Below, piece after piece: positions 22,800 to 64,000 of a DNA stretch of 64,000 nucleotides. The notes under the pieces were generated by a model. It made no database searches and had not been told where the DNA came from. It saw only the letters and a list, made by a program, of their open reading frames with translations. Positions within the stretch are counted from its first letter, which is position 1. The number at the start of each line of letters is the position of its first letter. The DNA is from Sipunculus nudus (Eukaryota > Annelida > Sipuncula > Golfingiida > Sipunculidae), in assembly GCA_026874595.1 (NCBI GenBank), contig CM049314.1, positions 57,770,300 to 57,834,299 on the forward strand, given 5' to 3'. The position numbers and the translations under genes are program-made.

Positions 22800-23275
22800 A
22801 GAAGAAGATATCTTTGTATCATATAAGTGAAACACATGACAAAGCTTAGCGTTAAAATATGTGTCGTTTAGCTCCTATCAGCTCATTACAAAAATATGCA
22901 CCAGACAGAGCAGTGGATTTTCCATGGGTGCAGCTAGTATATATTAACTTGATGACGCTAAACTGAGTATTTTCAAATGATGACATTGTTCGTGTCGTAG
23001 TTGAAATAAAGGTAGATACATTACTAACTCCATTGTATGTGTTCTTCACTCTGCGGAGAACACTCTTGTTATACTGTCTTTTTGTTATACTGCATCCGTC
23101 TGTGGGAAATATGTGTTATTGCAAAGCCCTGACATGGGGTCCACTTTACTGCGTGACTCAGTGCAAGAAGAAGTAAATTAGTTTGAGTGGTCTGTTTTGG
23201 AGTGCGTGAACAAGGTGCCTTTGATATGATACTAGTTTACAGGTACTCACAACAGGGATGCACCGGTCGATGGGG
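22800..23275 (+). repeat. Upstream paralogous block of LRR-Ig unit 1
   Basis: 22802-22940 matches 32385-32530 (shared CCTATCAGCTCATTACAAA and GTGAAACACATGACA). 23125-23275 matches 33565-33720, and more weakly 59100-59170 (shared GTCCACTTTACTGCGTGAC, CAACAGGGATGCA). The block lies 1.3-1.8 kb before the LRR-Ig gene in each unit, so the duplicated unit is far longer than the coding region. Confidence 0.8.
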
Positions 23276-24344
23276 GTTCAATTACATCTAAATACCTTTT
23301 TCGTTTATGGATTCACTTTCTACATTGCTCTTAACAAGGTGGCATGTATCAAAATTATTTGTAGTTGGTTTCTTGGTAATATATGGCTCTATGCACGAAA
23401 AACTAAAGCATGTATTGCTAAAGTATCTAAAGAACTTTGAGAATTGAAGGGGTCCACTGATGTTTATTATTTTTTTAACAAAACTCTTGGCAGGGTCCAC
23501 TGTTTCCTCCAAAAGTGGTCGAGCCTTCTGGAGGGCTTTAGTTAATTTTTTAACCCTGTTCAGATGGCATACCCTTGCAATTTTTTTTATGATTACAAGT
23601 CATAGACATAGTCAAAAGATTTAACCAAAGCTTTATTTAAGATTACGTTAATTTTGCTCGTTTACCATATTCTTCTCCACACATTATTTGTTTGTACATT
23701 TCTGGTTTCGAAGAAAAGTAAATTTGCAATATCGGATTTGTGGTACACTACTCTAAGATTTAAAAAAGAAAAGCCTGCTGGAAAATGTTGCAATTTTTAT
23801 GTAAAAGACTATTCGTTAAATACATGATTAATCAAACACGTATATATTATGGGATATATGAGTAAACTAGCGGTCACTTCAATCATATCAAAAGAACATC
23901 CAAGGGAAAAATACTTATCATACTCTACTTATGAATAAAGTGGCCCGCCAGAGCATCGCATAAAATATTGGGCTTTTTCTCAATCTGTTGTCAACACGTT
24001 TAACAAAGTGAATACGGGCACCAACATGAAAACTCACGTTTTTCTTATGAGAACCTAACTTTCGTTAAATGCGGTATTCTGTCATGAAATTTTCAACTGG
24101 AATTAATAAAGGATATGTATGAATTGTTTGGTGAAACACATTGATTTCTGGATTAAATGAAAATGACTCTGTGTCATCTGCATCTAAATGATGTAAATAT
24201 GGCTATTTAAATCAATTATCCGCTCTTGGTCCCTCCATCTATACAATAATATCTTTACACTGAATAAACGAGATTATCACCATAAACGCTGTAACACAAT
24301 AAAGATCCTCTAAACATTTATTAAAGGTATGGTTATTAAACAAT

Positions 24345-24580
24345 GTTATCACACCATGGGTTAAGGTCATCCCACTACATATTTACTGACAATATCATGC
24401 AAGTATATACGGTCTGCGTGGCGTAAAAACAGTCAGTAATTACATCATCAGCAGAATCATTTACTTTCTATGTGACTGTCATTACCATTGTTTGTGTGTG
24501 TCATCGAACAACAGAAAAGCTCTGTAGAAAAATAGAAATGGTCTCCAGGTGAACGGAATATCTATATAAACACGGAAACC
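24345..24580 (+). promoter_or_regulatory. Conserved 5' block of LRR-Ig unit 1, candidate promoter
   Basis: Aligns with 27940-28140 and 61410-61660. Conserved words are CACCATGGGTTAAGGTCATC, GTAAAAACAGTCAGTA and CATTACCATTGTTTG. A TATA-like CTATATAAAC sits at about 24561-24570, some 25 bases before the region aligned with the 5' end of the genes. Promoter function is inferred from conservation and position. Confidence 0.5.
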
Positions 24581-25310
24581 TTGATTGTTGAAAAGGAAAC
24601 TTAGATTGATACTTACCATTAAGAAAAAAAAGAGATTATTGAATTTCATCGTTGTACAGGTGTCTTTGGCCTTAGAACCGAGGTCGTTTTGTCACAGAAA
24701 TGACATTTCTCATGGCCCTTCTAGAAACAGATCACAAGAGATTCCAATTCGTACCGTAATGATACACCAATGAGTAATGAACATTACACATCACAACCTT
24801 TCCTCCCAAGGCTTGTGCAAATGGAACTTTTCTTTGGAAATTAAACATTTAGACCTGACCGTCACTTACATCAGGGACGATGAAACAAACTTTCAATGTT
24901 CTAAGAGCTTAATGTAGCCCCTGATTGGTCACAGATATATTTGAGAAATCAAGGATAATTCACATCGTGGATTAAAACATTTACCTGGGCTGAATGCAGA
25001 GCACTATTGCATGGAGAAAATAATATTTTCTTATTGTCGTGGCCTGCATGCCTTGAGATATCTGATACTGCGGATCAACCGGATCAGTGAGTGTTTAACC
25101 CAAGGCATTACATTCTTCTATATTTAGCCTTGAGTTATAACCGCCTGGTCCTTCCTTTGGATCTGGAGTCGTTTCCGAGACATCTTTTTCTTCTTCATAA
25201 TCCCCTCCTCTGTGGCTGTAGAGTCCGAGCTTTTCAGTAAACTACAGCCTAGCATCACAGGACGAAAGACTAAATCTGCTCTCCGTTTTTCGGAATGTGT
25301 TGAAAAATGA
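24580..25310 (+). pseudogene. LRR-Ig receptor relic, unit 1
   Basis: Clear relic of the same family as the intact gene at 28161. The signal-peptide stretch reads FIVVQVSLALEPRS, but the start ATG is replaced by AAA/AGA codons. The conserved GLCKWNFSLEIKHLDLT, FQCSKSL, HRGLKHLPGLNAEH and LHALRYLILRINRISE follow, with stops after HQ (24773), in the first LRRs and after the last LRR, plus frame changes. The match fades in the LRR C-terminal cap, near 25250. No Ig or membrane part follows, although DNA matching the 3' flank of the intact gene reappears at 26294, so the middle has been lost or replaced. Confidence 0.85.
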
Positions 25311-28160: not shown

Positions 28161-29462
28161 ATGAAAATGATTTTTCTGAATTTAATCTTTGTACATGTGG
28201 CTTTGGCCTTAAAACCGAGGTCGCTGTGTCAAGGAAATGACATATCTCTTGACTCTTCTGAAAGCAGATCAAAAGCGATACCGATTCGTACCGTAACGAT
28301 AAACCAACGAGTAATGAACATTTCACATTACTACCTTTCCGCGCACGGCCTGTGCAAATGGAACTTTTCTTTGAAGCTTGAACATTTGGACCTGACCAAC
28401 ACCAACATCAGTGACGATGAAGCAAACTTTCAATGTTTGAAAGGCTTGAAGTGGCTCCTAATTGGTCACAAGGATATTTCCGAAATCAAGGAGAATTCAC
28501 TTCGTGGACTAAAACATTTACTCGGGCTGAATGCAGAGCACAATTGCTTGGAGACAATTAACTTTTTTCATTTTCGTGACCTGCACGCCCTGAGATATCT
28601 GATTCTGCGAAACAACCGAATCAGTGAGTGCGTTACCTCAGGTAATGCTGGGTGGATGGACCAGCTTCTATATTTAGATTTGAGTTATAACCGCCTTGTC
28701 CTACCTTTGGATTTGGAGTCGTTTCCGAGACATCTTTCTCTTCTTCATAATCCTCTATTCTGTGGGTGTAGAGTCCGATCTTTTGGGAAAACATTAGGTA
28801 GGCATGTATCAGCCGCCTGCCAAAGTCCACCAGTCATGACTTATATCAAAACAGATACGTGTTATTATGAGTATAAAAATACATTAAGAGCCCAAATACC
28901 AGAAAGGTGTGATCCACCAGAAAATAAAACGTTAGAAGAATTACAAAACCGTTATAACTCTCTACCTGATTGCACAATGCCACACGTTTATTTAGAAAAG
29001 ATAGACGACGGGAAACGTGTGACATGTATCGCTATTGGTGGACCGGGGATTGAGATAAACATGACGACACCAGAAAAGGAATCAATTCTTCATTATCCTT
29101 CCTCTTTAGAACAGATGTTTTCAATTATCAATATACCAGGGCACCATGAAGGTGAGTACATCTGTTCTGCGCGGAACCAGTTCAACAAAGAAAGGGTGAT
29201 CAGAAGGTCAACACAAGGGATTGATCCTTTGAGCTCATTTGTCTCCCAGTTTAAAGAGAAAGTTTGTTCAAAGGAACCAAAATGCACTTGTCTACTTTTT
29301 TGGCCTTGGCATCTTATTTTGCCCATTGCATCTTCAAGCATTATTTTGAATGTAATTATGTTAGGCCTTTGCTGTCCATCTCGTATAAAAAAGAAAACCA
29401 CAAATCTTGATGTCCTTGTCTATGTGCGCACCCCAGAATTTTCTGGCTTTAATGCTACCTGA
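28161..29462 (+). CDS. LRR-Ig transmembrane receptor, short-tailed (unit 2)
   Basis: Intact single-exon gene of 433 residues. The start is the ATG at 28161 (a second ATG lies two codons on); the open frame extends upstream only from a TTG. Layout: signal peptide about 1-18 (MIFLNLIFVHVALAL); four to five leucine-rich repeats about 72-185, including KGLKWLLIGH and LHALRYLILRNNRISE; an LRR C-terminal cap with C201, C203 and C220; a cysteine-bearing linker (C234, C250, C271); a C2-like Ig domain with C289 and the EGEYIC motif (C335); a membrane segment about 378-404; then a basic stop-transfer (SRIKKK) and a tail of only about 29 residues. LRR-Ig proteins are cell-surface recognition or adhesion molecules. 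The tail is unrelated to that of the gene at 61676. AATAAA lies at 29785. Confidence 0.88.
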   Translation: MKMIFLNLIFVHVALALKPRSLCQGNDISLDSSESRSKAIPIRTVTINQRVMNISHYYLSAHGLCKWNFSLKLEHLDLTNTNISDDEANFQCLKGLKWLLIGHKDISEIKENSLRGLKHLLGLNAEHNCLETINFFHFRDLHALRYLILRNNRISECVTSGNAGWMDQLLYLDLSYNRLVLPLDLESFPRHLSLLHNPLFCGCRVRSFGKTLGRHVSAACQSPPVMTYIKTDTCYYEYKNTLRAQIPERCDPPENKTLEELQNRYNSLPDCTMPHVYLEKIDDGKRVTCIAIGGPGIEINMTTPEKESILHYPSSLEQMFSIINIPGHHEGEYICSARNQFNKERVIRRSTQGIDPLSSFVSQFKEKVCSKEPKCTCLLFWPWHLILPIASSSIILNVIMLGLCCPSRIKKKTTNLDVLVYVRTPEFSGFNAT

Positions 29463-30804
29463 AACAACGGGACCTTCAATGCAATGGATACAAAATATGT
29501 TGACTGGTATATTAAAAGCAGTGTTTTAAACAGACCCAAAGATCCGTTATGAAATGAGGTGACTATTTGCTGTAGTATATAAGCAAGACTCTCTGGTGTC
29601 AATGATGTGACTGATGTTTGTTGGGATTATTTCATCAATACTCACATATACACAGTTGATGATTTGATTAGACTAATGTTGTTTGGCTAACAGATAAATG
29701 CACGGAGTACTTAAAATTTGACGTACCTTTTGTAGAATCGTTTAAGCCAAATCAACGGTCATAAAAAGTCCAAATTATCCCAACAATAAATTCATATAAA
29801 TTACCATATTGCGGCTACTTCATATGCCCTGCCATGCTGTGGAGGAAATATGTAAGCGTTTAGTATGAAGAATAAAATGAAAGTAATGAATCTCTGAACC
29901 ACTATCAGATAAGCTAAAGGGGTTGTTTTGTAGAAAGATAGTCAAAATGGGTGTATTGTTCTGATTTGTCATGACACAAAAAAGATCCATATATCAAAAA
30001 TATGAAGCAATGGTTGCTTTCATCCGCAAAGGGACATATTAATTCCAGGTACAAGTATTACACTATGTTTCTTCTGTTCGTTTCTGTCAGTTAAATGTAA
30101 ACATAATATGTTAACATCTTTCGTGACACAAAATTAAAATGCAAAATTGAATTTCTGTCAGTTGTTATATATGTTGTCACAGGTTCTTGTTCATCATAGT
30201 GTCTATATGAAAATGTCACGGGATGGTCGTATTATGCTTTACTGATATTTTATATCTTTAGAAATTTGTTTCGAAGAATAAAATGCTGCCACAGCGATAA
30301 GTGTTCTGATAGGAATTTGAATTTGTGTAATGGACTCTGATTCTGAAAATATGCCGACCCATTGAAATGTCGTATTCAATGGAAAGAGTTTTTGCCATTT
30401 TGTTTAACGCTATACTGAGAATCCATTAAAACATGCGCCTGTCTATATCAATATAATTAATACGGAGTTGGGTTTTTTCTAGACCACGGTTTACCTACTT
30501 CCGTTCTGATTTGACTCTCCAAATTCGGCAGACGTATTGGTGGAGCGCTCTTCTTGGACAAGTTTGTTTTATTTTGCGGTATTAAGCCCTATTTAGCTGA
30601 ATAATTAATAATATTAATATTTCCCCCTTAGGTGGCCCTATTTCTTTTGTGCTGCAAGGTCCTCCACGCCTGTGACGCTTTTTCAGGAGGCGCCTGGGGG
30701 ATTTTCACTGGCCTGTTCAGACCGTGGCCAGAGCGCATGTCCAGCCCAAAGAGCATTTCCGTGCAATACGCTGTCACGCGAGTCTACTATAATCCCCATT
30801 GATC
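29463..30804. other. Non-coding spacer, 3' flank of unit 2
   Basis: The first 50 bases match the 3' flank relic at 26310-26345. 30300-30440 weakly matches 27130-27290 and 58570-58720 (TGCCGACC, then CTGAGAATCCATTAAAACATG). A candidate poly(A) signal AATAAA is at 29785-29790. A relatively GC-rich patch lies at 30630-30780 with no coding content that I recognise. Confidence 0.55.
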
Positions 30805-30849
30805 CCCCATATCCATTGTAACGCCTCTAAAGAAAATTTTCTCTCTCAA

Positions 30850-31530
30850 AAGGAATGAAAAGGTTTGTAATTCAATGACCACATGACTTCGCTTCCAATG
30901 GGAGGGCTCTTCAGTTTGGTCAACACTGGGCACTGAGACCAGTGATGTGAACACCGTTTGACAATATTTTATGGGTTAGAGGTATGTTGATTTTTATACA
31001 TTCGAAAATATCTTTCCATGATAACCATGGTTTTAAAAGTTAGGCCAAGTTATGTGTTTTATGAATTTTTTTTTCAAAAATAAGCCCCACAACTTAATTA
31101 TCATTAGAGTTGTGTGTGTGTGTGTGGGGGGGGGGGGGTTCATATATATTTGTTAAGATCCGTGGTATGTAGGGACGGTGAAGCATAAAAAACACCAGTC
31201 CATCCTTAAATTGATAACAAACTATAATCTGTAGTCAGGGCGTACAGACCTCCACCAGAATCCCACATGAATTGTTTAATAGGGAGCACTTTTCCGTTGG
31301 GTGGACACAAAGAGCTGAGTCCTTTTACACGATCGCCGTTTTATAGGGGTTACAGGTTTGTTGATTAAATAAATTTCAGAAGTATTTTACATAATAACCA
31401 TGGTTTTTGTAGTTCGGCAGATTTATGTGTTGTTTGAAAATATTTTTTAAAAGGAAGCCCAGGGGGGTGGGGATTGCACACACTTCAGAGGGTCCTCAAT
31501 CTCTAGGGGACTTTGAAACCCCCGCCAGAA
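30850..31530 (+). repeat. Two diverged tandem units of about 375 bp
   Basis: 30965-31090 and 31340-31462 align (shared AGGTATGTTGAT/AGGTTTGTTGAT, ATAACCATGGTTTT, TTATGTGTTTTATGAA/TTATGTGTTGTTTGAA, AAGCCC). Flanking text also aligns loosely (CTCCACCAGAATC against CCCGCCAGAATC). A (TG)n(G)n run lies at about 31115-31138. It recurs in copy 2 near 42990-43670. Confidence 0.65.
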
Positions 31531-34184
31531 TCTACTAATCAGTCGTTAGTTCATACGTGCACGTTTCATGTAAAAACATTGTCATGGTTCAGGAACACGG
31601 GTTCACCTGGCGAGTGGCATAACAACTGCATACGAATGGGCTGCTTCTACTTAGGGACAAAGGAATAGCCCCTTATAGTTATTCCTTTATGGATTTGTGA
31701 TTATAGCTCTTAAGAAAATATATATTATGGTGATCCCGATTACCTCTTTAAATGTTATCGATTACGGATGCAGTACCCCTCTACAAATTTCCAGCTAAAT
31801 CTGTATATTACATTTTGCGTTAATTTGCTGAAAGACAATGCAACGAACCAAGGCTGAAGTGGTTTCTTTGCTAAACGCTTTCATCAAAATATATATCAAC
31901 CTGCTTTCTTTTTTTATCTCGGACAGTTGTCAATTTTGCATCAGACCTGCTTATTCCATGACAATTTACAGTACTTAAACCAAAAATTTGTTGGAACATA
32001 TTTTTCTGGGTCTATCTTTTTCACATTGGCAGCTATACGTTTCGCGTACAAGATAATTTAACGACATATGCATGTGTATAAAAATAACGCATGTGTCTGT
32101 TAACATGCCTTAGACTATACCCTAAACTGATTACACTGAATAAACATCGTGTTTTACGATGTCGCCTGAGCTTCAACTAATACAAAGCATTTTTAATTTA
32201 ATTTCACGGTAGAGTGCTTCTTTATACAATCGTTATATCTATGATATTTCCCAAGCAAAAAAGCTGTCCGACCTATGTTGTTTATCAGGAAAACAATGTT
32301 TGTGTGATTTCTGGAATAGAATATATTTTCTTTCTATGTTGATATTTTTTTGGGCGCGTATTCCTGGAGAAATCAGCGGAAGTAATCTTTATATCATATA
32401 GGTGAAACACATGACAGAAGTTCCTGCAAACCCTTAGGATTAAAATATGCGTCGTTTAGTTCCTATCAGCTCATTACAAAAATATACATCAGATAGAGCC
32501 ATGGATTTTCCACGGGAGCAGCTAGTAACTGTTTATTACATTGAATTAAATTATGTTACTTGCGTCACAGAACATGATTCGTCTAATATGTAATTATTTC
32601 GGAGATCCATATTGTGTATTTAAAGTCAGACCAATGACGTAAGTGGCCTTTTTACTGCTGAATCATAAAATGTAGACACAGACATAGAACTAAATGAAGC
32701 CAGTCATTGACGATGTTACTGTTTTACTTGAATATACATAGCAGTGGCCTACATTAAGCATTAACAAAGGCACATATTGACGCAAAACACTTTTGTGAAA
32801 ACACTTTAAGGTAGCAGAAGTGGAATTCCAGATAAACCTGACTTCGTTTAAGGTTTCCCTTTACATTGAACAATCTGCTGCTTTGGGACCATTGATGTAT
32901 ACATTTTCTGAAAGCTAAAGAGATTCCCTACATTCTGGTAAATAGAATTGGGAGAAACATATTGGAATTCATAACCGTTTTCATTTAATTCTAGATAATA
33001 AAAAAACACAGTTTAGTCAAGCACGTCTAATGCAGATACAGAATATATTTTTGAATGAATCGAAAATTAAGATAAAAATCCCAAAACATTTTGTTTGTAA
33101 GTATAGTTACAAATCATGATTTTATCGCGTATTTAATCATTTCACTTTTTTACGTTTTCGTAAATAAAATCCTTTTAATTAAGTTTAGTCGTCAAAAAAG
33201 CTTTTAGTTGATATGTTAACAACTATATATGGCAAAATTGTACGTTACGGACAATTATTGTTGAGAAAAACGCACTAAAGATAAGGTGGTCAGGTAGAAA
33301 GATGTGCTGTGAAAATGGGCAAAAACTAATTTCGAAGAGATCATTCGATCTGCATAATTTTCTATGCACAAATACATTCTGACAAACAGACTGTTAAAAA
33401 TAATTTCACTTAATGCCAGACCATTGAAATCGTTTCGTGGTTGACATAAAGGTAGGTACATTACTGACTCTGTTGTATGTTTTTAACACTCTGCGACGTA
33501 CATTTTTGTTATATTACCTTTTTGGCAACTTTCTGTAGAAACTCTGTTTGCAAAACCCTGTCAAGGAGTCCACTTTACTGCGTGACTCACTGCAAGAAGG
33601 CGTGAATTACTTTGAGTGGTCTATTTTGCAGTGCGTGATTAGGGTGCCCTTGATTGATACCAGTTTACGGGTACTCCCAACAGGGATGCAACGGTTGATG
33701 TGGGTTCAGACTTAATCGGACTCTCCGGTTACACAATTTTGGAAAGTAAAGGCTGCTGGTATCCGCCCGTAATTGTTGCATTTTATTTTGTATGTAAAAG
33801 ACTTTATCAAATATATGTTTAATTACACATGTATATATCAAGGGAGATATGATAAAGGTAACTAGCGGTTAATTTAATCATATCAAAAGAAAATCCATGG
33901 ATTATCTTTCCATACTCTACTTATGTAAAAAGTGGCCCTCTAGAGCATTACGTAAAATCTGAAATATTGGGCTTTTTCTCGATCTGTTCTGAATACTTTA
34001 AACACAGTGGATACAAGCACCAAAATAAAACCTCAAGCATTTCTTAAGAAAACTTAACTTTTGTTAAATGATAAATACTCTCTTATAATTTCCAATTGAA
34101 TGTATAATGAATATGTATGAATCGTTTACTGACCATTTTTGTTTTCATAATGAATAATTTTGAAGGAAAGCCTTGATTGTTGAA

Positions 34185-34675
34185 AAGAAAAATTGGATTG
34201 ATACTGACGCTTTTAATAAAAATGTGGCTTTTAATTTCATCCTTGTGCAGGCGGCTTTGGCCATAGAACCAAGATCGCCTTGTCAAGGATATGACAATTC
34301 TCCCGGCTTTTCTGGACAGATGTAAATAGATAGCGATTCGTACCGTAATTAGACACCCTCGAGTAATAAACATTTCACATTACACGGCCTGTGTAAATGT
34401 AATAATTCTTCAAAGACAGAACATTTAGACCTGACCGACACAAACATCAATGAAGATGAAGTACACTTTGAATGTTTGAAAGGCTTAAACTGGCTCCTTA
34501 TTGTACACAACGATATTTGCGAAATCAAGGAGAATGCACTTCCATGGATTAAAACGTTTAAGTGCGCTGAATGCGGAGCACAATTGTTTGGAGTCGGTAC
34601 ACTTTTCACATTTTTGTGACCTGCACATCCTGAGATAACTGATTTTGCGGGAAAACCCGGCATTCATCCGGTAAT
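34185..34675 (+). pseudogene. LRR-Ig receptor relic, unit 3
   Basis: Begins with the family 5' UTR wording (CCTTGATTGTTGAAAAG, then GGATTGATACTGACGC) and an ATG at 34222. The family protein can be followed in shifting frames: a signal-peptide region ending in AALAIEPRS, then LRR text such as EHLDLTDTNINEDE, FECLKGLNWLLIVH and EIKENA. Stops and frame changes begin at once, and the match ends near 34672 within the LRRs. No LRR cap, Ig or membrane part follows. Minus-strand open frames here are shadows. Confidence 0.8.
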
Positions 34676-35394
34676 TATGACATCAAGGGAACCTTATTAC
34701 CCACTTGAAGTTTACAAAGTTTTAGACACTCGAGAGTAAAAAAAATATAAATAAACGAAGACTCTCCCCATGTATTGTCATTGCTCAGTCATTCACCAAC
34801 CGATTCGGGAAAAAGCGCCCGTGTGGTCCACAGGTTTTTGGAAAGATTTCATGAAGGCCGCAAGGGTGTCATGGCTTTTCTGCGGGTTGCTTGGCGTTCT
34901 ATCCTTGATGTAGGGCGCTTTTAGCTAGGAGTAAAAATTTCTAGATACGTTGTTATAATTTTAGTACCTATATATCTATAGACAAGTTTATCGTTTATCC
35001 CACGGCGCGAACGAAAACGCGTTTAAATTTTAAATAACGTTAAACAGAGGCCTAACAGAGATAGTTTTCTTCCTACAATGGACCTCAAGCACAGAGACAT
35101 CCTTCTAATCTTATAGCCTTGACTTTCATTTATAACTAGATAAAGAACAAATGTTAATGGACCCACCTTGTGAAAGAAGTGGACAGAAAGGAAAGGGAAT
35201 TTATGTAAATCAACTAATAAAGATTTATACGATAATATACCGTAGAAAGCACCTAGCACGATACCTAATTATTTTACGATTTTTTTAAAAATTTTATACC
35301 GATGTATCTAAGTGGTTGGACTATAACTACAGTGCTTGGAAAGAATAGCCGTGTTTGGTAATTGAAAAGTAATTTTATCAGATTAAATGGTAAC

Positions 35395-35670
35395 AACCGG
35401 CTTCTGTGTCTCAGGGGTAGAACACAGGACCCAAAGCCGCGAGATCATGAGTTCGAATCTCAGCCGAGGCGGTGAGATTTTTCATGGTCACCACCCAGGG
35501 TGAGCGCTATGCAGGCTTAATGGAAAGGCCGTGCCGAACGGCAGTGTTCACTCTAACGGGGTTCCTCGTTGGTATGACCTAGCAATGGGGACGATTACGC
35601 ACCAAGGGCCCGCAGGTGTAGTGGTCACCGGCCTGGTTGACGCCAGGATATAAAATGAAACCAGAATTGA
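35395..35670 (+). mobile_element. tRNA-derived SINE-like element
   Basis: The head resembles a tRNA with internal polymerase III promoter boxes: an A-box-like TGTCTCAGGGGTAGA at about 35407-35421 and a B box GAGTTCGAATCTC at 35449-35461, spaced as in tRNA genes. It continues into a GC-richer non-tRNA body (CCACCCAGGGTGAGCGCTAT and onward) to about 35670. A (TTC)n-type run at about 36129-36160 may be the tail of this or a neighbouring element; the 3' limit is uncertain. The anticodon stem does not pair, so this is not a working tRNA gene. Confidence 0.65.
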
Positions 35671-36922
35671 ATTCTGCAGATGTTCATAAACATAGTTAAG
35701 TATAGAAGTAAGTAACAATAATCAGTAAACGATGTATTTCTCTAGCTTTCGGTATCGCTATAAGCACCTATGTAAAGCTCAGAGTAGGATAATAAATTGG
35801 CTTTTAATAATTTTGCCTAAACGTTGTAGTGGCTTAGAGGCTCTTTTAAGGTAAAAACGACAGTTATTAAAAGCACGCTCAAATAATGTTAATAATTTGT
35901 ATGTGTTCCATGTGTAATTTTTAGATATTGGGTAAATCAGGTCTATACAAATTGTTTAAATTATTTACATACGTAAATATATATCCACTGCTATTTTAAC
36001 GTTACGGGATAATTAATATTCGCATTCATCTATATGCATGTTTTTGACTATTGCACTATTACGTGTTTATGCTGCACAATTATCAGAGTAATTATCTGTA
36101 TGTGGACCAGTGTTTGTCTAAAATAAACCAATTCTTCTTCTTCAGCTTCTTCTTCTTATTATAAATATCAGTATTATTCCCTCCGTCAGGAGAATATGCG
36201 TTCATCCCTTCCCGTGTGTTTGTGTGTGAATTTCCACACAACCACTAAAGGAACCAGATAAAAATTGGCCATTGAAGACCCAATTAGATTTTGGTGTGGT
36301 TCCGGCCCATGGTCCGGATTTAGTGACATCATCAAGGAATATGCACATAAATAAAGTCACTTATGCAAGAACCTGGGAAAGGACCAAACATGTGTATTGA
36401 AACATGAAAAGTAGCATCCTAGAACAGGTTCCCATACATACCGGGGCATTCCATTCCTTACACTGAGATTTCTAGTTATTGATATTGTTATGTTTTTAAA
36501 CGTGTTATAAAACTCTAAGGGTCCCATAAATCACTGGTAAAATATTAAAATTTCTTTTAAATTTGTGTGCAACTGTCATAAATAAATGGTTTTTTTCTAA
36601 TGCTCTCTGAGAGATACCAAAGTAAGACCTCCGAATTTGTCATCAGTTTACTAGAGCGGAACATTAAGAGCCATCTTAGTGTGGAATAATGTCTCCATAT
36701 TCAGTTGGTTCTCAATTAGAATATTCACTTCCTGCGCATCATTTCTGGTCTTGGTTTTCAACTGTAACGACACAATTTTCCGAAGACGTTTAAGTTGCAT
36801 ATAGTGATAAATACTGTTTTGAAACTGTGAAATGGAATTCTAAATGAACAAGTATAAATAGTGTCTGAAACTTTTTCTGGAAGGAACTTAAACTATGTAC
36901 CGGCTGCAACAGACTGGTGAAA

Positions 36923-36963
36923 ACAATAATTATTCAGTGGTATCTTCCACTGAATAATTGTTC
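36923..36963. repeat. Short inverted repeat (hairpin)
   Basis: AATTATTCAGTGG, a six-base loop TATCTT, then CCACTGAATAATT; the match extends further with a three-base bulge to AACA/TGTT. It lies upstream of relic unit 4a, with a duplicate near 49062-49102. Possibly the centre of a small palindromic element. Confidence 0.7.
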
Positions 36964-37289
36964 CTGATGTGCTTGCGGCCTCTCTGATTATTCAATATCA
37001 TTACACTGTCTACATGAGATTGTAATAATAATATAAGGGAGGTATAATCAACACGGGAGTATGTGGTCGTCAAATAAATGACAAATAAACAACTGATAAT
37101 TATATGCTAATATATACTGTATGTCTGACGTAAAGTTATACAGTTTATTCGGGATTTAAAGACTTATTTACTTACAGCTTGTGTATTAGTATCACTGTGT
37201 GTGTACCAATAAATCACAATTACAGAAAAGATATGTTGTGCAGATGGCAAAAGAAAATGTTGTTTTATATAAACGCGAAATAAAGACTG

Positions 37290-39833: not shown

Positions 39834-39900
39834 TATGCACAATGCTAGGCCACATGGAGTATTAATATGTGGAAAGTAGACGTGCGGAGAGGGTAATAAA

Positions 39901-42900: not shown

Positions 42901-42946
42901 AACCGACGCAGTTATGAATGGAATCACATGAAATTGTCAGGGTTTA
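39901..42946. other. Non-coding spacer, 3' flank of unit 4b
   Basis: 39901-40330 aligns with 63200-63620, the 3' flank of the intact gene at 61676, except for a segment of about 40 bases at 39974-40014 that is inverted relative to it. The remaining 2.6 kb holds no gene that I can support. The same content recurs at 52039-55083. Confidence 0.6.
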
Positions 42947-49428: not shown

Positions 49429-49669
49429 ATGCCTAGGATTGTGATAAAATCAGGTTTCTAAATGATATCTTCATTAACGTGGCTTTGACATTGAAACCGG
49501 GGTTGCCTGGTAACGAAAATGGCTCTTCTCTTGGCTGCTCTGAGCTTCACACCGAAATGATACGCCCGCGTTTACGGAACGTTTCATTTTAAAATATTCC
49601 TCTCATGGCCCGTGCAAACGGAGCTTTCCCTTAGCGACTGAACCTTTAGGCCTAAAAACATTAGTTACT
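49429..49669 (+). pseudogene. LRR-Ig receptor relic, unit 4a (duplicate)
   Basis: Copy of the relic at 37290-37530 at offset 12139, with the same breaks. It lies the same distance before the duplicate of unit 4b. Confidence 0.65.
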
Positions 49670-50483
49670 CAAATTATTAAAATATATATAAATAAACACA
49701 GAAAGGAGCAGAAGACTTACAATACAGCAAACTGAATAAGAGAAATAACTTGATTCCTCTGTCTGCTATGACGCATGATTGTATTTTGGAGTACAGGCAT
49801 AGATCAAAAACTTAAAGTATCGTACCATTTATGTTTTGTTTACACAGTATATGATACATGATGCATAAATATTTTTGACCCAGAGCATGACCTATAGTGC
49901 TTTTTGTTTCTGTATCCGGCTTGTGTTTCTGATTAAAAATTTTAATTTCAACATATTCGGTCAACTTTTGAGAATATTTTTCCTAAAACATTTAATAAAG
50001 AAATACCTCTTTAATATTTCGGGAGATTTTTTGGATCTGTTTTGTGAAGGTCATTTTAAGGCTTTGTCAAATCATTTGGAAATGCACCTGAATATAATAT
50101 ACTGTTTAATAATGTTTCTAATTGAGGTTGCAAGTAAAATAAACGGTTTTTAATTATCTCTTAAGACAAGCCATCTGGACCATGGGATTTTCCTTTGATC
50201 AAAGCATTTGTTACTTCTATTATAAAAAAAGGGAAAAATAATATAAACGGTGTGACTCAGGCCAGAGGTATTGTTATAAAACATGTGTCCTGTTTACTTA
50301 CCAGCTCGCCATAAGTACCATTGTGTCCGTCTGACCAATCATGTGAACAAGAGTAGTAAATGATGCCATGCAGATTGAAGTACCACTGATATAAACAAAC
50401 ACATTTGTCCTAAAGGAGCACTGTGAAGCTATATCAACTTCAATGCCAAAACGAGGTATCTCAATGTAAAGGAAGTACTTTTT

Positions 50484-51971
50484 ATGACCATTGGTGCATT
50501 TATAGCTGGGGCTTTTACGGAAGAACCTAGTTCTGGATTTCTCGGAAATGGCTTCTCTTTTAACTGTTTTCGGCTTGGATTAAGCAATCGTCTGTTCAGT
50601 AAGTTAAAAGCCTCTGTTTCTGACGATTTTTCCATGCGTAATCTTACAGTGCTGAATGTTTCAAATACAAATGTGTCCGTTCAGCAACTGTGTATATTGA
50701 ACTGTGCTTCAGATATTGAACCTTTGGACATGACTAATCATAATATTGGTAAAGACACAACTTTTGAATATTTCAAGAAATTAAAGTGGCTATTAATTAG
50801 CAACAACAGGATCTGCCAACTCAAGGGAAATTCACTTCGTGGATTAAAACATCTGCAAGGTCTGTATGTAGCGAACAACTGCCTGGAGACAATAAACTGT
50901 TCACATTTCCGTGATCTGCACACCCTGAGATATCTGATATTGCGCAAAAACTGGATCACTGAGTGTATTACCTTATGTAGTACCGGCTGGATGGACCAGC
51001 TTCTATATTTAGACTTGAGTTATAACCACCTTGTCCTTCCTTTGAATTAAGAGTGGTTTCCGAGACATATTTATCTTTTTCATAATCCTCTTTTCTGTGG
51101 CTGTAGAGTCCGATCTTTTGTGAAAGCATTAGGTAGGCATGTATCAGCGGCCTGCCAAAGTCCACAAGTCATGACTAATATCAAATCAGGTTTGTATTCT
51201 TATGAGTATGAAAATACATTAAGAGCCCAAATACCAGAAAGGTGTGATCCACCAGAATAAAAAGTTAGATAAGTGACAAAACTGGTATAACTCTCTCCTT
51301 GAGTGCACAATGCCATACGATTATTAAGGAATGATTAACAATGGGAAAAGTGTGGCATGTTTCGCTATCGGTGGACCGGGGATTGAGATAAACATGACGA
51401 CACCGGACAAGGAATCGATTATTCGCCATCCACGTTTTCCAGATGAGATGTTTTCAATTATCAAAATACTAGGGCATTATTAGGGTGAGTACATCTGTTC
51501 TGTGCGGAACCAGGTCAGCAGAGAAAGGGTTACCCGTAGGTCAACATTGGGAATCAAATATTCGAGCTCGTTTATCTCAAAGTTTAAAGAAGAAGTTAGT
51601 GGAGGGATGTTGAACGGCACCAAGAGTCTGCAGGAGATGCATGATACTTCTCGGTATCTTGTGTTTTAGAATCCTTGTGAATATTTTTTCTTGGAGAATA
51701 CTGTTATAAGATCATGCCGCAGAAAAGGAACAACAATGTGAATTTACTACGTCTAACCAATGTTTCACACATGAACACCCTACGAAGCAACCACATCCAA
51801 CAGCACCGGACACGAGAGCCTAATGAGGATAGTCAATATCAAGAGGTCGCAGGCGTCCTCGATCCACGTGATCAGTTCATTGAATACAATGTCGTTTACG
51901 AACCAGACAGCCCTCCGTGTTCAGCTGCTTCGTTACCTAAAAATGTTGACAGAGGCCACGCGCACTATTAG
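50484..51971 (+). pseudogene. LRR-Ig receptor relic, long-tailed, unit 4b (duplicate)
   Basis: Copy of the relic at 38346-39833 at offset 12138. It carries the same TAA after the last LRR and the same later stops, so the gene died before the block was duplicated. The tail (51714-51971) differs at one or two residues near its start (KRNNN against KRYNN) and keeps both ITIM-like motifs. Confidence 0.85.
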
Positions 51972-54900
51972 TATGCACAATGCTAGGCCACATGGAGTAT
52001 TAATATGTGGAAAGTAGACGTGCGGAGAGGGTAATAAAGTACAGTTACATTGATTACATTACTGAAAAAAGGTACGTTAATACAGTTTAAATCAATAATT
52101 AAAAAAAAAAATAACTGCAGATTCCTAACCTTCCCATGTATTAAATTTAGAAAGAAATGCTTGCACGTGAAGATGGTCCTTCATGGTTGTAGAAATGAAT
52201 TGCTTTTTCATATAATCATTAACAGTGGTTCAAGGGGAACCTTTTTCGCTTCAACATACCTGTTAAATATAATTCATGGATTTGATGCTTGTATGTGTAT
52301 TCAGGTATGTTTTGGAATTTGATATGATGAAAAAAAAACGATTTAGGAGTAGTGAGTAAAACAACCGACTCTTTATATCTAATGAAAGTAGATAGTAGTC
52401 ATTTTTTAACAAGTTTTCTGGCCGACATTGTATGGGCGCAATTTTATGATCATCTAATGAGAAAACATGACCTTGAAGTGAAATGGTAGATGTGTAGATC
52501 AAAAGGCATGTAATTTCAACTGTGACATGTCAATTTATTATTTATTAACAAAGAATGCTCCTTAACCGCTGTTGCACAACATTGAAAAGGGTTTATGTTG
52601 GAGAAGGGATTTACCTCATATTATTAAATTAATGGTATTTATTAAAACGATCGTGTGACGATAGTATCAAGATCTGTTTTGAATTGGCGACACTTTGATT
52701 TCACAGGCGAAATAACATCACTTATACACGTTTCAACAGAAATTACATGAATAATAAATATATATTCGTTATATACAACCATCTAACATGTCCCAGGAAA
52801 GCAAGTGGACTAGACGTTTCAACGTCAATTAGTGATCTATTTGAGTCACCGGCCTAGCTTGTGATAGAAGACTCTAGGCTTCAAGGTTAAGGATTCAAGA
52901 CACCTTTACATTATAAACTCTAAGCACCAGAGGCGTTTATTATGTTACATGCGGAAACTAATATAACCCTGTTTTAGCCTTTTAGTATTTCAGTCGTTAT
53001 ATAATAAATCACATATTGATCCTGGTATTTGACAACAGGTGATTTATAATGTCTACATATATTGATTATTCCTTGGGCATGGTTTTTAAGTGACAATCAT
53101 GAACACTTGCTTATATGTTAAACGACGAATATTGTAAATTGTTGGAAAACAACAGCACATTTGAGGTTATAGCTTCCTGAGGTTATAGCTACTTACTTAA
53201 TAAGAAACTAACTTAATATGATAATATGCAACTGACAGGTCAGAAACATAATCACTCGGTCATGGTGTCTGATGGAGAAAGTAGACTCTGATACATTTGT
53301 CACATTAACGTAACAACAATGGTTTTGACAAACACTTGAAGTTTGGTCTCAAAGGTATAAGTCGACCTGTGGAAGATAAAAACGGATTACCGAGTATATT
53401 GTTTATACTATACACGCTTGATTGATGGTCTTATTGCATTTGAATTTTAAATAAATTAAAGGATTATTAGAAACTGTGGAAGTGGTTTTGTTAGCGGGGT
53501 TTTAATTTTCGGGCCTTTAGCGGGAGCTAGATTTGCGTTAAATTAGGACACGCGTTATTTTGATACCATCGTTCTGAGGATTGCAGCAGCGTTCTCGCCT
53601 GACCCACAGTCATGTGGCTCTGGTAATTCCTCCGTGCGGGGTCGCTTCAACCAAGATGTTACGGTTGTCATGTTGTCAATAGTGTCCACAGCTGAGATCA
53701 TCTCCCATTAAGAGTGATTTGTAAAAACAAATGTGAAACAAGTAGGCTTTTAAGACCTTTAAAACCCCCTTCCCATTGTTGTCAGCTCTGTGTGTTGTTC
53801 ACACATAGCTGGTTGCTTCTGGTTAGTTATCACAGTTGTTGGTGTTGAGCAATTCTACAAATAACCCAGATGTCAAACAACGTGGCTAAGTGCAGTACCA
53901 TTGCATCATCAAACGTGAGTAGTCTAGGTTAATTACGTGTTAGTTAAACCTTGATGTCACGATTTTCGATCAGTAGCCCGTGGAATGTACGCGGTCACCC
54001 GGAGGTTGTTAGATTGCGCAACAAACGGGTCTTTTATGAATATTTCAATTTAAATAATTAGATACAAAATGAATTATCTTACATACCGATGTGTGCGAAA
54101 ATTTGAACTGCGCTGATGCTGTAAATGAAAAAAAAGCCTAAAGGAAATTAAGAACGTTAAATATCCACCTACTTTGCTAACACACATTTTCAAAGCAGTG
54201 AGCTACGTCCAACCCTTCATTGCAAACACAAACCTTCAGCCTCGTAAACAGTTATTTCATGTGATTTAATGAACATAAACACTAATGATATTATTGGGAA
54301 CAACCCTTAACGCTGTCCTTTTTTTATAAAGTTATTAGATTCCAAATACACATCCCGAACTCGTACTCTCTCTTGTTACAGGCGCAGATTTATTTTGTTG
54401 GAAATGAAATCTTGCGAATATCTGTTCATACGGATTCGGATATGAAATCGGGTATAGTTTGGACTGTTTATTCGGATTAAGTTCCGGAGACCCGTTCAAG
54501 AGATGTATATCTTCTCGGTTTTGTACTGGTCCAGATTAAGTTGAGGCATAAATTCGGTCTGTGTATCCTGATTCAGATCTAGTTGTTGGATCATACAGGT
54601 ATATATGACGGGGTGTGACCATGATTTCATATTATGCATGACCGCAGGAGTTGCTTACAAATTCACATAATCCTTTCAGGCAATGTCATCATCTCTTTAA
54701 CGTTTTCTTCTTATCAGGCAGGTTTCATTGACCCTTAAACGTCGACCTCTGATCCTTTTGTTATAACTATATGAATGTCAAAGAGATAATTACGAATAAT
54801 GATCATTTGATCTTGATTTTTTTATACTAATTATTTGTGTTAGTTTCACCATTTTTAGTGGAGACAAAGGATGAGAAAAACACATCTATAAAAACTGCCG

Positions 54901-56099
54901 TTATATTCACAAAATGACTTGTTTAAACATGGCTGGATCATACTGTTTATAACCAGCAAATATAAAAAAAAAAACATATGCGCCATATGCAAGTGCATGC
55001 ATTCCAATTCGTGTGTTTGTGTGTTTGTTCACAAAATAACCGACGCAGTTATGAATGGAATCACATGAAATTGTCAGGGTTTATCGGGAATGAGTCAGTT
55101 TGATGTGCAGGGGACGCGCAGCCCCTTTTTTACCTAAAAAATCGCGGAAAAAAACTCATAGTACACCAAGTATATAGAACAGTTACAATGTATGTCTTGC
55201 GTTATAATGAAGTGACCCCAGAATGCACGACGGTCTCGAAAGGTGAGCCCCTTCTATTCTAAATTCCTGTATATTTACAAACGAACGGTCACACATGCAC
55301 CAATGAACCCTATGGCTTTTTACGAGTAAGTGTAAAACCAAGATTTTCTAATTACAAACATTTTTGTATTTTAATATATGATACGCTTGTGAACGTAAAT
55401 ACATAATTTTTAAAACTTAAGTATAAATATGTACGGATATGGTCATAACATGTTCATATCTATGAGATATATGACCATGGCAAATGTATATTGGATATTT
55501 GTGATTACACTTCCGCATGTCAGTATTTTAAAATGTTGTAATTAAGACACACTTTGTATTTTGCGAAATAATTGCCTCATATGCTAATGATGAAAAGAAC
55601 GCCTTAACAAAAGAATTACCGATGACACACTCACAGGTATAACAAAATGGGAAGATAAAGTATAAAGAGACATGACTGTGATTTTTCACGTGTGTTATGC
55701 CTGTGTAAAAGCTCTACCTTTGGTTAGTTACCTGGTCTCTCACTGGAGGGCTCATCACTTATCTTTAAACAGCGAAAACATAAAGATAATAAAGAGATAA
55801 ATCAAAGAACTGAAAAAACCTTAACAGAACTAAAATCCGGATATGAACTGCTGTTGTAGAAAGAGTGTTATTATAAATGATAAGATACTATTTATCTCTC
55901 GTGTGCTTGGGAAATAGCTGGAAACGGAACCTATATGTGACACAAATATCCTAGTGGATATTAGAGCCTGTCTCCCTAGCGATGATATGATCGCTACAGA
56001 GCCCCTTGGTATGTTCATGTTTAGCATCTAACGCCTGTATCGAGAAACCGGGCTGTGTGATATTTGTACACTCTTTCTTTTAGTCCTTTGTCAATACAT

Positions 56100-57489: not shown

Positions 57490-58470
57490 ACCCTGAGATG
57501 GCGATATAAGATTCTTAAGATAAGATATAGTTTATTGCTATATAAATGTAATAAAATCATCACATACAATAGTATTTGGCTTGACTGGCTTGGTTAAACA
57601 AACACATTAAACAACAAATAATAAAATAAAATTGTGTATAGAAAAAAAAGACGTATGACTAAGAATGTTTGACTAGATTATTGTGCTGCAAGTGATATTT
57701 TTAATTCCCGAACGGCTGACGTGTTAGTGCTGGTTTGAGTTCTTTTGGAATTGCCTGATAGGTACCTATAGCAAACCCCCGATTTCATTTTTTTAAACAG
57801 ATAGTGCGCCGGATGTCTATAGTCTTCTATAATGTCGTTTGCTTTCTTCAACAATCGTGTTTGAAATAAGGAGTCAACTGTGGGTAAAGGAAGCCCAATG
57901 ATCATGTCAGCTGTTCTAACTACCAACGAAAGACGGTTCCTTTCCTCGACCGTGATACTGCCTCCCCATACAGTGAGTGACAACGTGAGGACTCCCTGAA
58001 TTACCGCCCGATAAAAAATTAATAAAATCGGTTGACTGAGCCTTTTAGGTTCCTTAGAAAGAATAAACATTGTTGTGCCTTCTTTACGCAGTAATTAACA
58101 TTTTCGGCCCACTTCAAATCAGAAGAAATAAAAATTCCTAAAAATTAAAACAGTCAACGATTTCAACCTCGGAGCCTTCAATTACTTATGGTAATATTTC
58201 AGTTTTCTTCCGTCTAAAATCAATTATCATCTCCTTGTTTTTCTTTACATTCAACCCCAGATTATTTTCAGAGCACCACGAAGTTAATGTTTTAATTTCA
58301 TTGTGGTAAACACTTTCGTTATGTCCCCGGATGAGCCAAGAAAATGTTGTGTCATCTGCAAATTTTACAATGAGGCAGTCATCAGAAGTAGAGACACAGT
58401 CATAGGTGAATAGAGAGTACAATTTTGGTGAAAGCACACAACCTTGGGGTGCCTCAGTGATATGGTCAAT
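57490..58470 (-). mobile_element. 3' fragment of a non-LTR retrotransposon, Rex1/Babar-like
   Basis: On the minus strand the start at about 58470 reads APQGCVLSPKLYSLF, followed by the reverse-transcriptase catalytic box FADDTT and TSWCSENNLGLNVKKNKEM (open 58437-58186). After a frame change near 58150, a second open stretch (58070-57678) gives the thumb region: FYRAVIQGVLTLSLTVWGG, VVRTADMIIGLPLP and HPAHYLFKKM. These are typical of the Rex1/Babar branch of CR1-like LINEs. At least two stops and one frame change sit between the parts, and the front of the element, including any endonuclease, is missing, as usual for 5'-truncated LINEs. The 3' UTR runs to about 57490. Dead. Confidence 0.8.
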
Positions 58471-58879: not shown

Positions 58880-58915
<36 letters not shown>

Positions 58916-61675: not shown

Positions 61676-63166
61676 ATGAGGTTAATGAATATTATCTTCG
61701 TACAATTGGCTTTGACTTGTCATGGAAATGGCTATTCTCATGGCTGCTCTGGAAATAGAACAAAAGAGATACCGCAAGGTAAACCAATGATAAACCAGCG
61801 AGGAATGAACATTTCACATAACAACCTTTCCGCTCACGGCCTGTGCAAATGGAACTTCTCTTCGGAGACTGAAGAGTTAAACCTGACCGGCACTAACGTC
61901 GGTGACGAAGAAGCAGACTTTCAATGTTTGAAAGGCTTAAGGTGGCTCCTGATTGGTCACAACAATATTTCCGAAATCAAGGAGAATTCATTTCGAGGAC
62001 TGAATCATCTACAAGGTCTAAATGCAGAGCACAATATCCTTGAGAAGGTAAACTTTTCACATTTGCGTGATCTGCAAGCCCTGAGATATCTAATACTACG
62101 GAACAACCGGATCAGTGAGTGCGTTACCTCAGGTGTTGCTGGTTGGATGGACCAGCTTCTATATTTAGACTTGAGTTATAACCACCTTGTCCTTCCTTTG
62201 GATTTGGAGTTGTTTCCGAGACATCTTTCTCTTCTTCACAATCATCTATTCTGTGGGTGTAGAGTCCGATCTTTTGGGAAAACATTAGGTAGGCATGTAT
62301 CAGCGGCTTGCCATAGTCCAGAAGTCATGACTAATATCAAATCGGATACGTGTTATTATGAGTATAACAATAAATTAAGAGCCCAAATACCACAAAGATG
62401 TGATCCACCTGAAAAAGAAACGGTAGATAAATTACAAAACCGGTATAACTCTCTCCCAGATTGCACAATGCCATTCGTTTATTTAGACACAGTCAACAAC
62501 AGGGAAAGTGTGGTATGTGTCGCTATCGGTGGACCGGGTATTGAGATAAACATGACGACACCGGATATGGAATCAATTATTCACCATCCACGTTTTCCAG
62601 AAGAAATGTTTTCGATTGTCAATATACCAAGGTACCATGACGGCGAGTACATCTGTTCCGTGCGGAACCAGTTCAGCCGAGAAAGGGCGACCCGCACGTC
62701 GACACTGGGCATCAATCGTTCGAGCTCATTTATCTCACAGTTCAAAGAAAAAGTTTGTGGAGGGATTGTGAACGGCACCAAAAGTCTGCAGGAGAACATA
62801 ATTATCGTTATATTGTGCTTAAGTATCCTTGTGAATATTGTTCTTCTGGGGAAAGATTGTTATAAAATCCTGCAACAGAAAAGAAAGAGCAATGCGGATT
62901 TAGTACGTCTGACCAATGTTTCACACATAAACACTCTACGAATCAACCCCATCCGACGATTCCGGACACAAGCGCCTAATGAGGATGGTCAATATCAAGA
63001 GTTCGAAGACGTAATGGATCCACGTGATCAGGTCATGGAAAACAACATATTGTACGAGCAAGAGGGTTCCCCGTGGGGAGCTGCCTCGTCACCCAAAAAT
63101 GTTGACACAGGCCATGCCCACTATTATTATGCTAGGCCACATCAGGTATTACTATGTGGAATGTAA
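61676..63166 (+). CDS. LRR-Ig transmembrane receptor, long-tailed (unit 5)
   Basis: Intact single-exon gene of 496 residues. The start is the ATG at 61676 (AAAAATGAGG); the longer frame begins only at a TTG. Layout: signal peptide about 1-16 (MRLMNIIFVQLALTC); LRRs about 62-175 (KGLRWLLIGHNNISE; LQALRYLILRNNRISE; QLLYLDLSYNHL); LRR C-terminal cap with C193, C195 and C212; linker cysteines C226, C242 and C263; Ig domain with C281 and DGEYIC (C327); membrane segment about 375-392; cytoplasmic tail of about 104 residues. The tail holds tyrosines in GQYQEF (a YxxF-type sorting or SH2 site), NILYEQ and HYYYARP. Several NxS/T sites lie in the ectodomain. The ectodomain closely matches the gene at 28161, but the tail matches relic 4b. 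AATAAA lies 27 bases after the stop, at 63193. A surface recognition role is inferred from the family. Confidence 0.9.
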   Translation: MRLMNIIFVQLALTCHGNGYSHGCSGNRTKEIPQGKPMINQRGMNISHNNLSAHGLCKWNFSSETEELNLTGTNVGDEEADFQCLKGLRWLLIGHNNISEIKENSFRGLNHLQGLNAEHNILEKVNFSHLRDLQALRYLILRNNRISECVTSGVAGWMDQLLYLDLSYNHLVLPLDLELFPRHLSLLHNHLFCGCRVRSFGKTLGRHVSAACHSPEVMTNIKSDTCYYEYNNKLRAQIPQRCDPPEKETVDKLQNRYNSLPDCTMPFVYLDTVNNRESVVCVAIGGPGIEINMTTPDMESIIHHPRFPEEMFSIVNIPRYHDGEYICSVRNQFSRERATRTSTLGINRSSSFISQFKEKVCGGIVNGTKSLQENIIIVILCLSILVNIVLLGKDCYKILQQKRKSNADLVRLTNVSHINTLRINPIRRFRTQAPNEDGQYQEFEDVMDPRDQVMENNILYEQEGSPWGAASSPKNVDTGHAHYYYARPHQVLLCGM

Positions 63167-63192
63167 ACGTGCGGACAGGGTCATGGACTTTA

Positions 63193-63198
63193 AATAAA
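63193..63198 (+). terminator. Polyadenylation signal of unit 5
   Basis: AATAAA shortly after the TAA stop. The corresponding place in relic 4b also has AATAAA (39895-39900 and its duplicate). Confidence 0.6.
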
Positions 63199-64000
63199 AG
63201 GATCCAATGACATAATAATAACAGTACTGACAAAAGTTACGTTAGTGCAAATTAATTCTAAATTTAATACATGGGAAGGTTTGGAATCCGCAATTATGCT
63301 GTTTACACTTTAATTTTTATATTCATGTATGTAAAAAAGGCCCTTCATTTTTGTAGAAATAAAGTGGTTTTGCAAATGTATGTTTAGCAGTGGTAAGAGG
63401 AAACCCTTTCCTCTTCATCACACTTTTTCAAAATAACTCAGGTGTTGTTCCTGCTTGTGCATTCTTGTACGTTAAGGAATTTGATCTGGTAACAAACAAC
63501 GATGTAGGGGTAAGAAAGTACGAAAGTAAAACTGCTGACTCCTTATATCTCATGACAGTAGAATATGGTCATTTTTGCATAGGTTACCTGGCGGATATTG
63601 TATAGGCACAAATGTTTTTACATAAAATAGAAATCTTACTTTTTTTTCGGATTATCCCATCTGCTAAGATTATTCTGCAACCGTTATCATAATGTTTGAT
63701 CTGTAATATTGTTTTATTTGTGGCCTTATTTTGTTTAATGATACATCTTTCACTTGTGTATAGATAATTAGATATCATAACGTGTGAATGCATGCGTCTG
63801 ATATATTAATGTATGTAATAAAATATTCTGGAGTACATCTGCATCTTAGTATGATTTATTAATGTTGATCAAGCCTTATGGACACTAAATTCCAGGGTGC
63901 CCTCTTTTTTCTCTCTCTCTATCTCGATATATAAATAGATAGAAAGAGAGATAGACAGAAAGATATATTAAGATAATAAGTGAATAAAAAAGTAGTCTGT
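63199..64000. other. 3' flank of unit 5, non-coding
   Basis: 63200-63620 aligns with 39901-40330, apart from the inverted segment 63255-63298. The remainder to the window edge is AT-rich with a CT/GA and ATAG simple-repeat patch at about 63905-63970. Confidence 0.6.

Follow-up and report, generated by a model that had tools for sequence, protein, structure and literature searches.

A large family of single-exon leucine-rich repeat-immunoglobulin receptors in Sipunculus nudus with birth-and-death turnover and exchange of membrane-tail modules

A stretch of 64,000 nucleotides from the sipunculan Sipunculus nudus (NCBI GenBank assembly GCA_026874595.1; 1.43 Gb, 153 contigs) contains a row of genes and gene relics for receptors with leucine-rich repeats (LRRs) and an immunoglobulin (Ig)-like domain, two of which, W28 and W61, are intact. 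This whole stretch, referred to as the window, occupies positions 57770300-57834299 of contig CM049314.1 (C9; other contigs and loci are likewise denoted C and L). The question raised by the locus is whether such a row belongs to a diversifying set of immune-type receptors, as proposed in a preliminary description made from the sequence alone, or to a stable family of adhesion molecules. The analysis presented here points to a large, lineage-expanded family of single-pass receptors with the order LRR, LRR cap (LRRCT) and Ig, encoded in one coding exon, and we cautiously favor host defence or the recognition of symbionts and non-self as its most likely role.

In W28 and W61 a signal peptide (assigned by eye), LRRs, an LRR cap, an Ig-like domain, a membrane segment and a tail follow one another in a single frame, of 443 codons stop-to-stop with the ATG at 28161 for W28 and of 540 codons with the ATG at 61676 for W61. 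The Pfam profile LRR_8 matches them with E-values of 8.4e-11 and 1.8e-15, respectively, and Ig_3 matches weakly (0.007 and 0.14); the mean hydropathy of the membrane segment is 2.18 in W28 and 2.78 in W61. A structure predicted from the two window proteins alone had a mean predicted local distance difference test score of 35.6, with low-confidence strands only at 267-341, the Ig region. The Ig domain is assigned because of paired cysteines and a G-E-Y-I-C motif in the sequence, together with stronger Ig matches in some relatives. The order LRR-LRRCT-Ig and a match to LRR_8 are found in 17 of 17 aligned members, in all of which the cap cysteines C193, C195 and C212 and the Ig cysteines C281 and C327 are invariant; Ig_2 is matched in six of 17 relatives (best 1e-6). 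A clear membrane segment is present in 16 of the 17, the exception being L034, and in 45 of 47 sampled proteins. By its LRRs, cap and membrane segment, the family can be placed in the LRR_Ig class (Dolan 2007), the Ig call being better supported in relatives than in the window genes, where it is weak. The one-exon structure claimed in the preliminary description holds for the coding sequence; on the 5' side, four relatives (L007, L003, L009 and L005) carry in the alignment, about 115 nt upstream of the ATG (distance hand-counted), a tract of pyrimidines that ends in CAG and may mark a non-coding first exon. No CAG stands at this place in the five remaining rows, which include W28 and W61.

The two intact genes are accompanied by seven relics (Table 1). 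A profile built from five family coding sequences, two of them W28 and W61, recovered all seven with nhmmer on the plus strand at E-values of 4e-19 or better, and tblastn with relatives recovered five, so that open frames and profile together bear out the two intact genes and seven relics in one orientation that had been read from the sequence before. Because a 12.14-kb unit is duplicated head to tail, the relics at 46, 49 and 50 kb are copies of those at 34, 37 and 38 kb, which leaves four independent relics. Paralogy of the flanks over kilobases, also claimed previously, applies to this 12-kb copy; for the other members, blastn at the settings used aligns the body of the gene together with no more than about 1.6 kb of upstream sequence.

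A genome-wide copy count had been named beforehand as a test, and instead of these two genes only, four protein searches of the genome merged to at least 157 LRR-family loci, at least 119 of them matched through the Ig region; both figures are lower bounds, since the best candidates were scored, and were obtained with hand-set thresholds. Among the other 38 loci are LRR proteins without a visible Ig domain (L070 and L071) or fragments. A non-random choice from the resulting tables, 58 loci on twelve chromosomes (L001-L038 and L057-L076), was read individually. In 46 of the 58 the frame between stops still spans 400 codons or more, and the single-exon coding layout is common across the family and not specific to the window. 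A tree was computed from 47 proteins (W28, W61 and 45 of the 58 loci, with 13 broken, short or Ig-less loci omitted), on which the seven chromosomal groups jointly need 7 changes, against a mean of 23 when shuffled; the four rows from C17 are scattered and require 3 changes, a number equally low in 49 of 500 shuffles. Receptor copies also recur 752-786 kb apart at C9:27.0-28.7 Mb, some with equal or near-equal E-values, and 98.5 kb apart at C3:40.70-40.85 Mb, where two pairs have identical E-values; these repeats are either large recent duplications or retained haplotypes.

The window itself belongs to a home cluster of 25 loci, all on the plus strand, which extends over about 1.4 Mb (C9:56.51-57.91 Mb) and includes seven loci of the window (the two live genes and five relics, the short 37- and 49-kb fragments being uncounted). 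Reading of each locus found 15 broken and 10 open through the membrane segment; one of the open ones, L003, stops early in its tail. Locus coordinates reveal tandem units of about 12, 53-54, 80-92 and 122-130 kb, and copies are 96-99.7% identical in gene regions, with the exception of the L003/L007 step (86.7%). Most of the window from 25.6 to 64 kb is repeated at C9:57.888-57.914 Mb with 98.6-99.0% identity, there with one 12-kb unit instead of two. On the tree, the ten sampled rows from the home cluster form a single clade (support 100/98). A birth-and-death multigene family, as the preliminary description had suggested, is thus supported by the tandem cluster with its open and broken loci, by the size of the family and by this clade.

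Identity between members changes along the gene. W61 and W28 are 72-94% identical at the DNA level through alignment column 370, then 65% and then 39-41%, and L009 and L007 pass from 76-95% to 43-58% beyond the same column, where identity between L009 and W28 becomes 67-78%. In approximately unbiased (AU) tests of clades that the alignment of the same sequences had suggested beforehand, ectodomain DNA rejects a clade of W28, L004 and L009 (p 0.00095), and DNA of the membrane segment plus tail, a partition of only 180 columns with a long-branch warning, supports that clade at 100/100 and rejects the ectodomain grouping, a clade of W61, L001, W28 and L004 (p 8.1e-9). Among the eight candidates scored, matches to the short tail of W28 are confined to three places, namely W28, L004 and L009. 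The 38-kb relic is a mosaic, L007-like in its first part and W61/W28-like in the remainder, and L009 and L003 share a 120-column tract with 99% identity against 78% overall. Because of the AU rejections, the distribution of the W28 tail, the mosaic relic and the L009/L003 tract, exchange of sequence among paralogues, which has joined related ectodomains to different membrane-tail modules, is well supported.

The 45 proteins with a clear membrane segment have either long tails (at least 55 aa; 21 proteins) or shorter ones (24), and at least 11 changes between these states are needed on the tree. The long tails carry a common tyrosine site, Y-[EQ]-[DE]-[VILMF], in 17 of 21 (13 of 16 when redundant tails are removed), whereas in 2000 shuffles the mean was 0.34 tails and the maximum 3; the pattern was picked after the tails had been viewed, so this comparison overstates its strength somewhat. 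No clear excess over the shuffled mean was seen in the 21 long tails for Y-x-x-P alone (9 against 5.0), Y-x-x-M (5 against 1.9) or P-x-x-P (8 against 5.9). The tails of L036, L037, L057, L068 and L069 end in a paired Y-x-x-P...Y-x-x-P. Three loci, L020, L072 and L025, have an in-frame stop just past the membrane segment with tail-like sequence beyond it, still in frame (Y-E-E in L072); L025 is also broken elsewhere. Other receptor types were considered in turn. Neither the immunoreceptor tyrosine-based inhibitory motif (ITIM) nor the activating one (ITAM) occurs in any of the 21 long tails, which rules out an ITIM/ITAM paired receptor, and a Toll-like receptor is ruled out because TIR is not among the Pfam families, 13 in all, to which 17 members have matches at E 0.01. 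An activating receptor that signals through a charged membrane residue was rejected, a core charge being found in seven of 47 proteins and not in W28, L004 or L009, as was a hidden splice donor behind the short tails, with no consistent donor seen by eye in 23 stretches.

A mechanism can be proposed from these features. New copies arise as tandem segments, many copies are broken by stops and truncation, and exchange among paralogues has put related ectodomains on different membrane-tail modules, all of which can be read in the DNA itself. The ligand of the ectodomain would be microbial or a cell-surface molecule. Where the tail is long, its conserved Y-[EQ]-[DE]-hydrophobic site may be phosphorylated and dock an SH2 adaptor, and tail-less members, with common recognition surfaces and no signalling by that route, could serve as decoys or competitors. 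Blood cells or epithelia would most likely use such receptors for recognition in host defence or to sense symbionts or non-self. As a tentative extension, interlocus gene conversion might continually recombine LRR-Ig heads, including those held in relics, with a signalling tail or a tail-less anchor, which would pair signalling receptors with decoys of identical specificity without ITIM, ITAM or TIR.

Several observations weigh against a role in defence, or against the strength of the evidence for exchange and signalling. LRR-Ig proteins include neural adhesion molecules. Because TIR, ITIM and ITAM were all not found, no known immune signalling module was identified, and both the clades of the AU tests, with the short tail partition, and the tail motif were chosen after inspection of the same data. 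The ratio of nonsynonymous to synonymous substitution (dN/dS) gave no sign of positive selection: among 14 pairs chosen from 16 coding sequences (L005 and L006, which are broken, entering with their open part only, and mosaic genes mixing histories) no whole-gene value exceeds 1, the range being 0.21-0.84, and the six pairs with dS above 0.25 (0.27-0.49) have values of 0.39-0.53. Older family members are under constraint; in the young pair L014/L015 the ratio is 0.21 on nine changes. Between W61 and L001, dN/dS reaches 1.15 in the Ig domain (4 nonsynonymous and 1 synonymous change), and all 4 changes in the tail are nonsynonymous, in both cases too few to count. Across 1488 coding bases this pair has accumulated 22 changes (1.48%), and across 5807 flanking bases about 59 (1.02%, by subtraction), so that no constraint since its duplication is visible. 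Among five paralogues of one cluster, x-sites of the concave LRR face are 70.7% identical and other LRR sites 70.3%, and LRR3-6 are the most conserved part (78%). Diversifying selection was therefore not detected by these simple pairwise tests, beyond whose reach selection on single sites lies. Of the immune-type cluster foreseen in the preliminary description, the birth-and-death evolution is retained, and the diversifying ectodomain, addressed by dN/dS and by the concave-face comparison, was not borne out; mosaics among the relics and live genes speak for sequence exchange.

These selection results, with dN/dS below 1 in every pair and a concave face that is not hypervariable, would also fit a neural or developmental cell-adhesion family similar to LINGO, SALM/LRFN, AMIGO, LRIT or Kekkon, expanded in this lineage and without a defence role, an explanation that we regard as unlikely. 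Families of neural adhesion molecules tend to have few members and to change little, and at least 119 Ig-matched loci, 15 of 25 loci broken in the home cluster and repeated change of tail speak against it. It is favored by the extracellular order LRR-LRRCT-Ig followed by a membrane segment, which is identical, by the best sequence matches in the PDB, which are LRR parts of IGFALS, LRIG1, LRRTM2 and LINGO-type proteins as well as TLRs and LGR4, and by the ties to neural development of LRR proteins that also carry Ig or FN3 domains (PMC2235866).

Part of the array could instead be an effect of assembly, with retained haplotypes or mis-expanded repeats appearing as near-identical units and a smaller true copy number, which we consider quite improbable. 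Many pairs are indeed over 98% identical, and near-identical units comprise the 12.14-kb unit (99.76%), the 80-92 kb repeat, the 98.5-kb pairs on C3 and the C9:27-28 Mb copies 752-786 kb apart. However, the 12-kb unit abuts its copy head to tail at a clean junction in a window without N, the second segment at C9:57.888-57.914 Mb has a single such unit where the window has two, and most sampled members are far more diverged on the tree, so the family itself is not an artefact. Least probable of all is a decaying cluster of relaxed, largely functionless copies whose open frames are merely young: the 15 broken loci of 25 and the W61/L001 pair, without constraint relative to its flanks, would fit it, but pairs at dS 0.27-0.49 have dN/dS of 0.39-0.53, the young L014/L015 has 0.21 on nine changes, and frames of 400 codons or more persist in 46 of the 58 non-randomly picked loci.

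Table 1. Members of the receptor family, their parts and the tandem unit in the window (positions are those of the window; TM, transmembrane segment)
Feature	Position	Strand	Evidence or remark
Relic with stops and frame breaks, truncated, running from the signal peptide to the LRRs	24585-25240 (nhmmer 24648-25240)	+	tblastn, nhmmer
W28, intact short-tailed receptor gene, 433 aa	28161-29462	+	Open frame, Pfam, TM/tail analysis, tail alignment
W28 TM	about 29313-29369	+	Followed by a 28-aa tail
12.14-kb tandem unit, first copy	30804-42946		blastn; junction sequences
Truncated relic, N-terminal part	34164-34657 (nhmmer 34241-34657)	+	tblastn, nhmmer
Short N-terminal relic fragment	37298-37521 (nhmmer 37328-37521)	+	nhmmer 4e-19, hmmsearch 2.7e-5; missed by tblastn
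Full-length relic with stops, mosaic	38289-39845 (nhmmer 38314-39826)	+	tblastn, nhmmer
12.14-kb tandem unit, second copy, 99.76% identical, head to tail	42947-55083		blastn; junction sequences
Copy of the 34-kb relic	46303-46796 (nhmmer 46380-46796)	+	Duplication comparison, nhmmer
Copy of the 37-kb relic fragment	49437-49660 (nhmmer 49467-49660)	+	Duplication comparison, nhmmer
Copy of the 38-kb relic, 99.7% over 3 kb	50427-51983 (nhmmer 50452-51964)	+	Duplication comparison, nhmmer
W61, intact long-tailed receptor gene, 496 aa	61676-63166	+	Open frame, Pfam, alignments, TM analysis
W61 six LRRs	about 61799-62245	+	Register set by hand
W61 LRRCT	about 62246-62461	+	Borders set by hand
W61 Ig-like domain	about 62462-62713	+	Borders set by hand
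W61 TM	about 62795-62851	+	Followed by a 102-aa tail
W61 tail tyrosine motif Y-Q-E-F, local form of Y-[EQ]-[DE]-hydrophobic	62993-63004	+	Position hand-counted

Elsewhere in the window, positions 3196-19021 are occupied by pieces of what we take to be a Ty3/gypsy-like retroelement, with gag-like, zinc-knuckle, integrase and reverse-transcriptase frames and internal re-duplications of 99-100%, part of which is repeated at C9:57.884 Mb, and positions 57678-58094 of the minus strand contain a C-terminal fragment of a reverse transcriptase, presumably of the long interspersed nuclear element (LINE) type. Further observations were made in the assembly at large. Ten Hox-type homeodomains, spiralian in type and presumably including Lox5, Lox4, Lox2, Post2 and Post1-like, form one cluster on C12, and other tandem homeobox clusters lie outside it at C10:12.55-12.66 Mb, C6:5.31-5.37 Mb and C11:62.04-62.07 Mb. 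Among 150 scored candidates for C1q, 24 matched at 1e-12 or better. A search with the haemocyanin beta-sandwich gave no match, a result of little weight since its control came out empty as well. Bacterial cytochrome oxidase, of types that we take to be COX1 and cbb3-like, is represented by nine full-length COX1 matches on eight contigs (C60, C61, C62, C66, C72, C74, C75 and C89), two of them 2 Mb apart on C89, and by a cbb3-like oxidase on C123. Identity between one copy (L050) and the best 80 relatives listed does not exceed 59%. Among plasmid records, the oxidase DNA found 11 matches, each covering no more than 80% of the oxidase length. A search for RuBisCO in connection with the bacterial contigs found none. 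These contigs are symbiont or contaminant genomes in the assembly.

LRR-Ig proteins are best known from families of modest size, and many of them are neural. Amphioxus has a large LRRIG set, because of which the expansion alone is less novel. No prior description of a single-exon recombining LRR-Ig array was found in the literature searched, whose coverage lies outside most subscription journals. Variable lymphocyte receptors (VLRs) of lampreys, which have no Ig domain, resemble the present family in their LRR recognition units, partial germline copies nearby and conversion-like exchange. They are, however, incomplete in the germline and somatically assembled (PMC13428168), whereas the genes described here are complete in the germline and their concave LRR sites are not hypervariable, and a VLR-like system was rejected on these grounds. 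The LRR_Ig/FN3 class of Dolan 2007 (LINGO, AMIGO, SALM/LRFN, LRIT, Lrig and Kekkon, in vertebrates and fly) has in common with the family the order signal peptide, LRR, LRRCT, Ig, membrane segment and tail, and differs in numbering 4 to 38 genes per genome (worm 4, fly 8, mouse 37, human 38; PMC2235866, Table 2) against at least 119 Ig-matched loci here.

Roles in defence are reported for several LRR-Ig proteins. Oyster CgLRRIG-3 binds lipopolysaccharide, peptidoglycan, glucan and poly I:C (as cited in PMC7734252) and is similar, by description, in joining LRR and Ig in one protein of a spiralian host with a proposed function in pattern recognition; a large, clustered, single-exon family with module exchange and relics sets the present case apart, again by description. 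IGLR-2 of C. elegans, which has a role in host defence, is likewise described with an N-terminal LRR region, a central Ig domain, a membrane segment and an intracellular domain, but its gene has introns, unlike the coding sequence here (PMC7734252). A crab LRR-Ig protein, Lrig-1, is also reported in defence (PMC11999971). Among clustered families, PTC1 and PTC2 of the mollusc Biomphalaria are comparable as clusters of highly diverse single-pass membrane genes tied to parasite resistance; PTC1 gene 2 carries FN3 and TMEM154, and the LRR-Ig order is not mentioned in the accessible text (PMC10875847). The Ig-domain and NACHT clusters of the pearl oyster are comparable as bivalve immune-type clusters with copy number varying between haplotypes, and their Ig proteins often carry FN3, with no LRR-Ig protein described in the accessible text (PMC9646362). 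Set beside these systems, a spiralian-type genome whose decaying and recombining clusters contain at least 119 Ig-matched loci suggests that a large repertoire for recognition was reached by a route of its own, for which the exchange of heads and tails and the common tail motif offer concrete, testable handles: the expressing cells, the SH2 partner and blocking by tail-less members.

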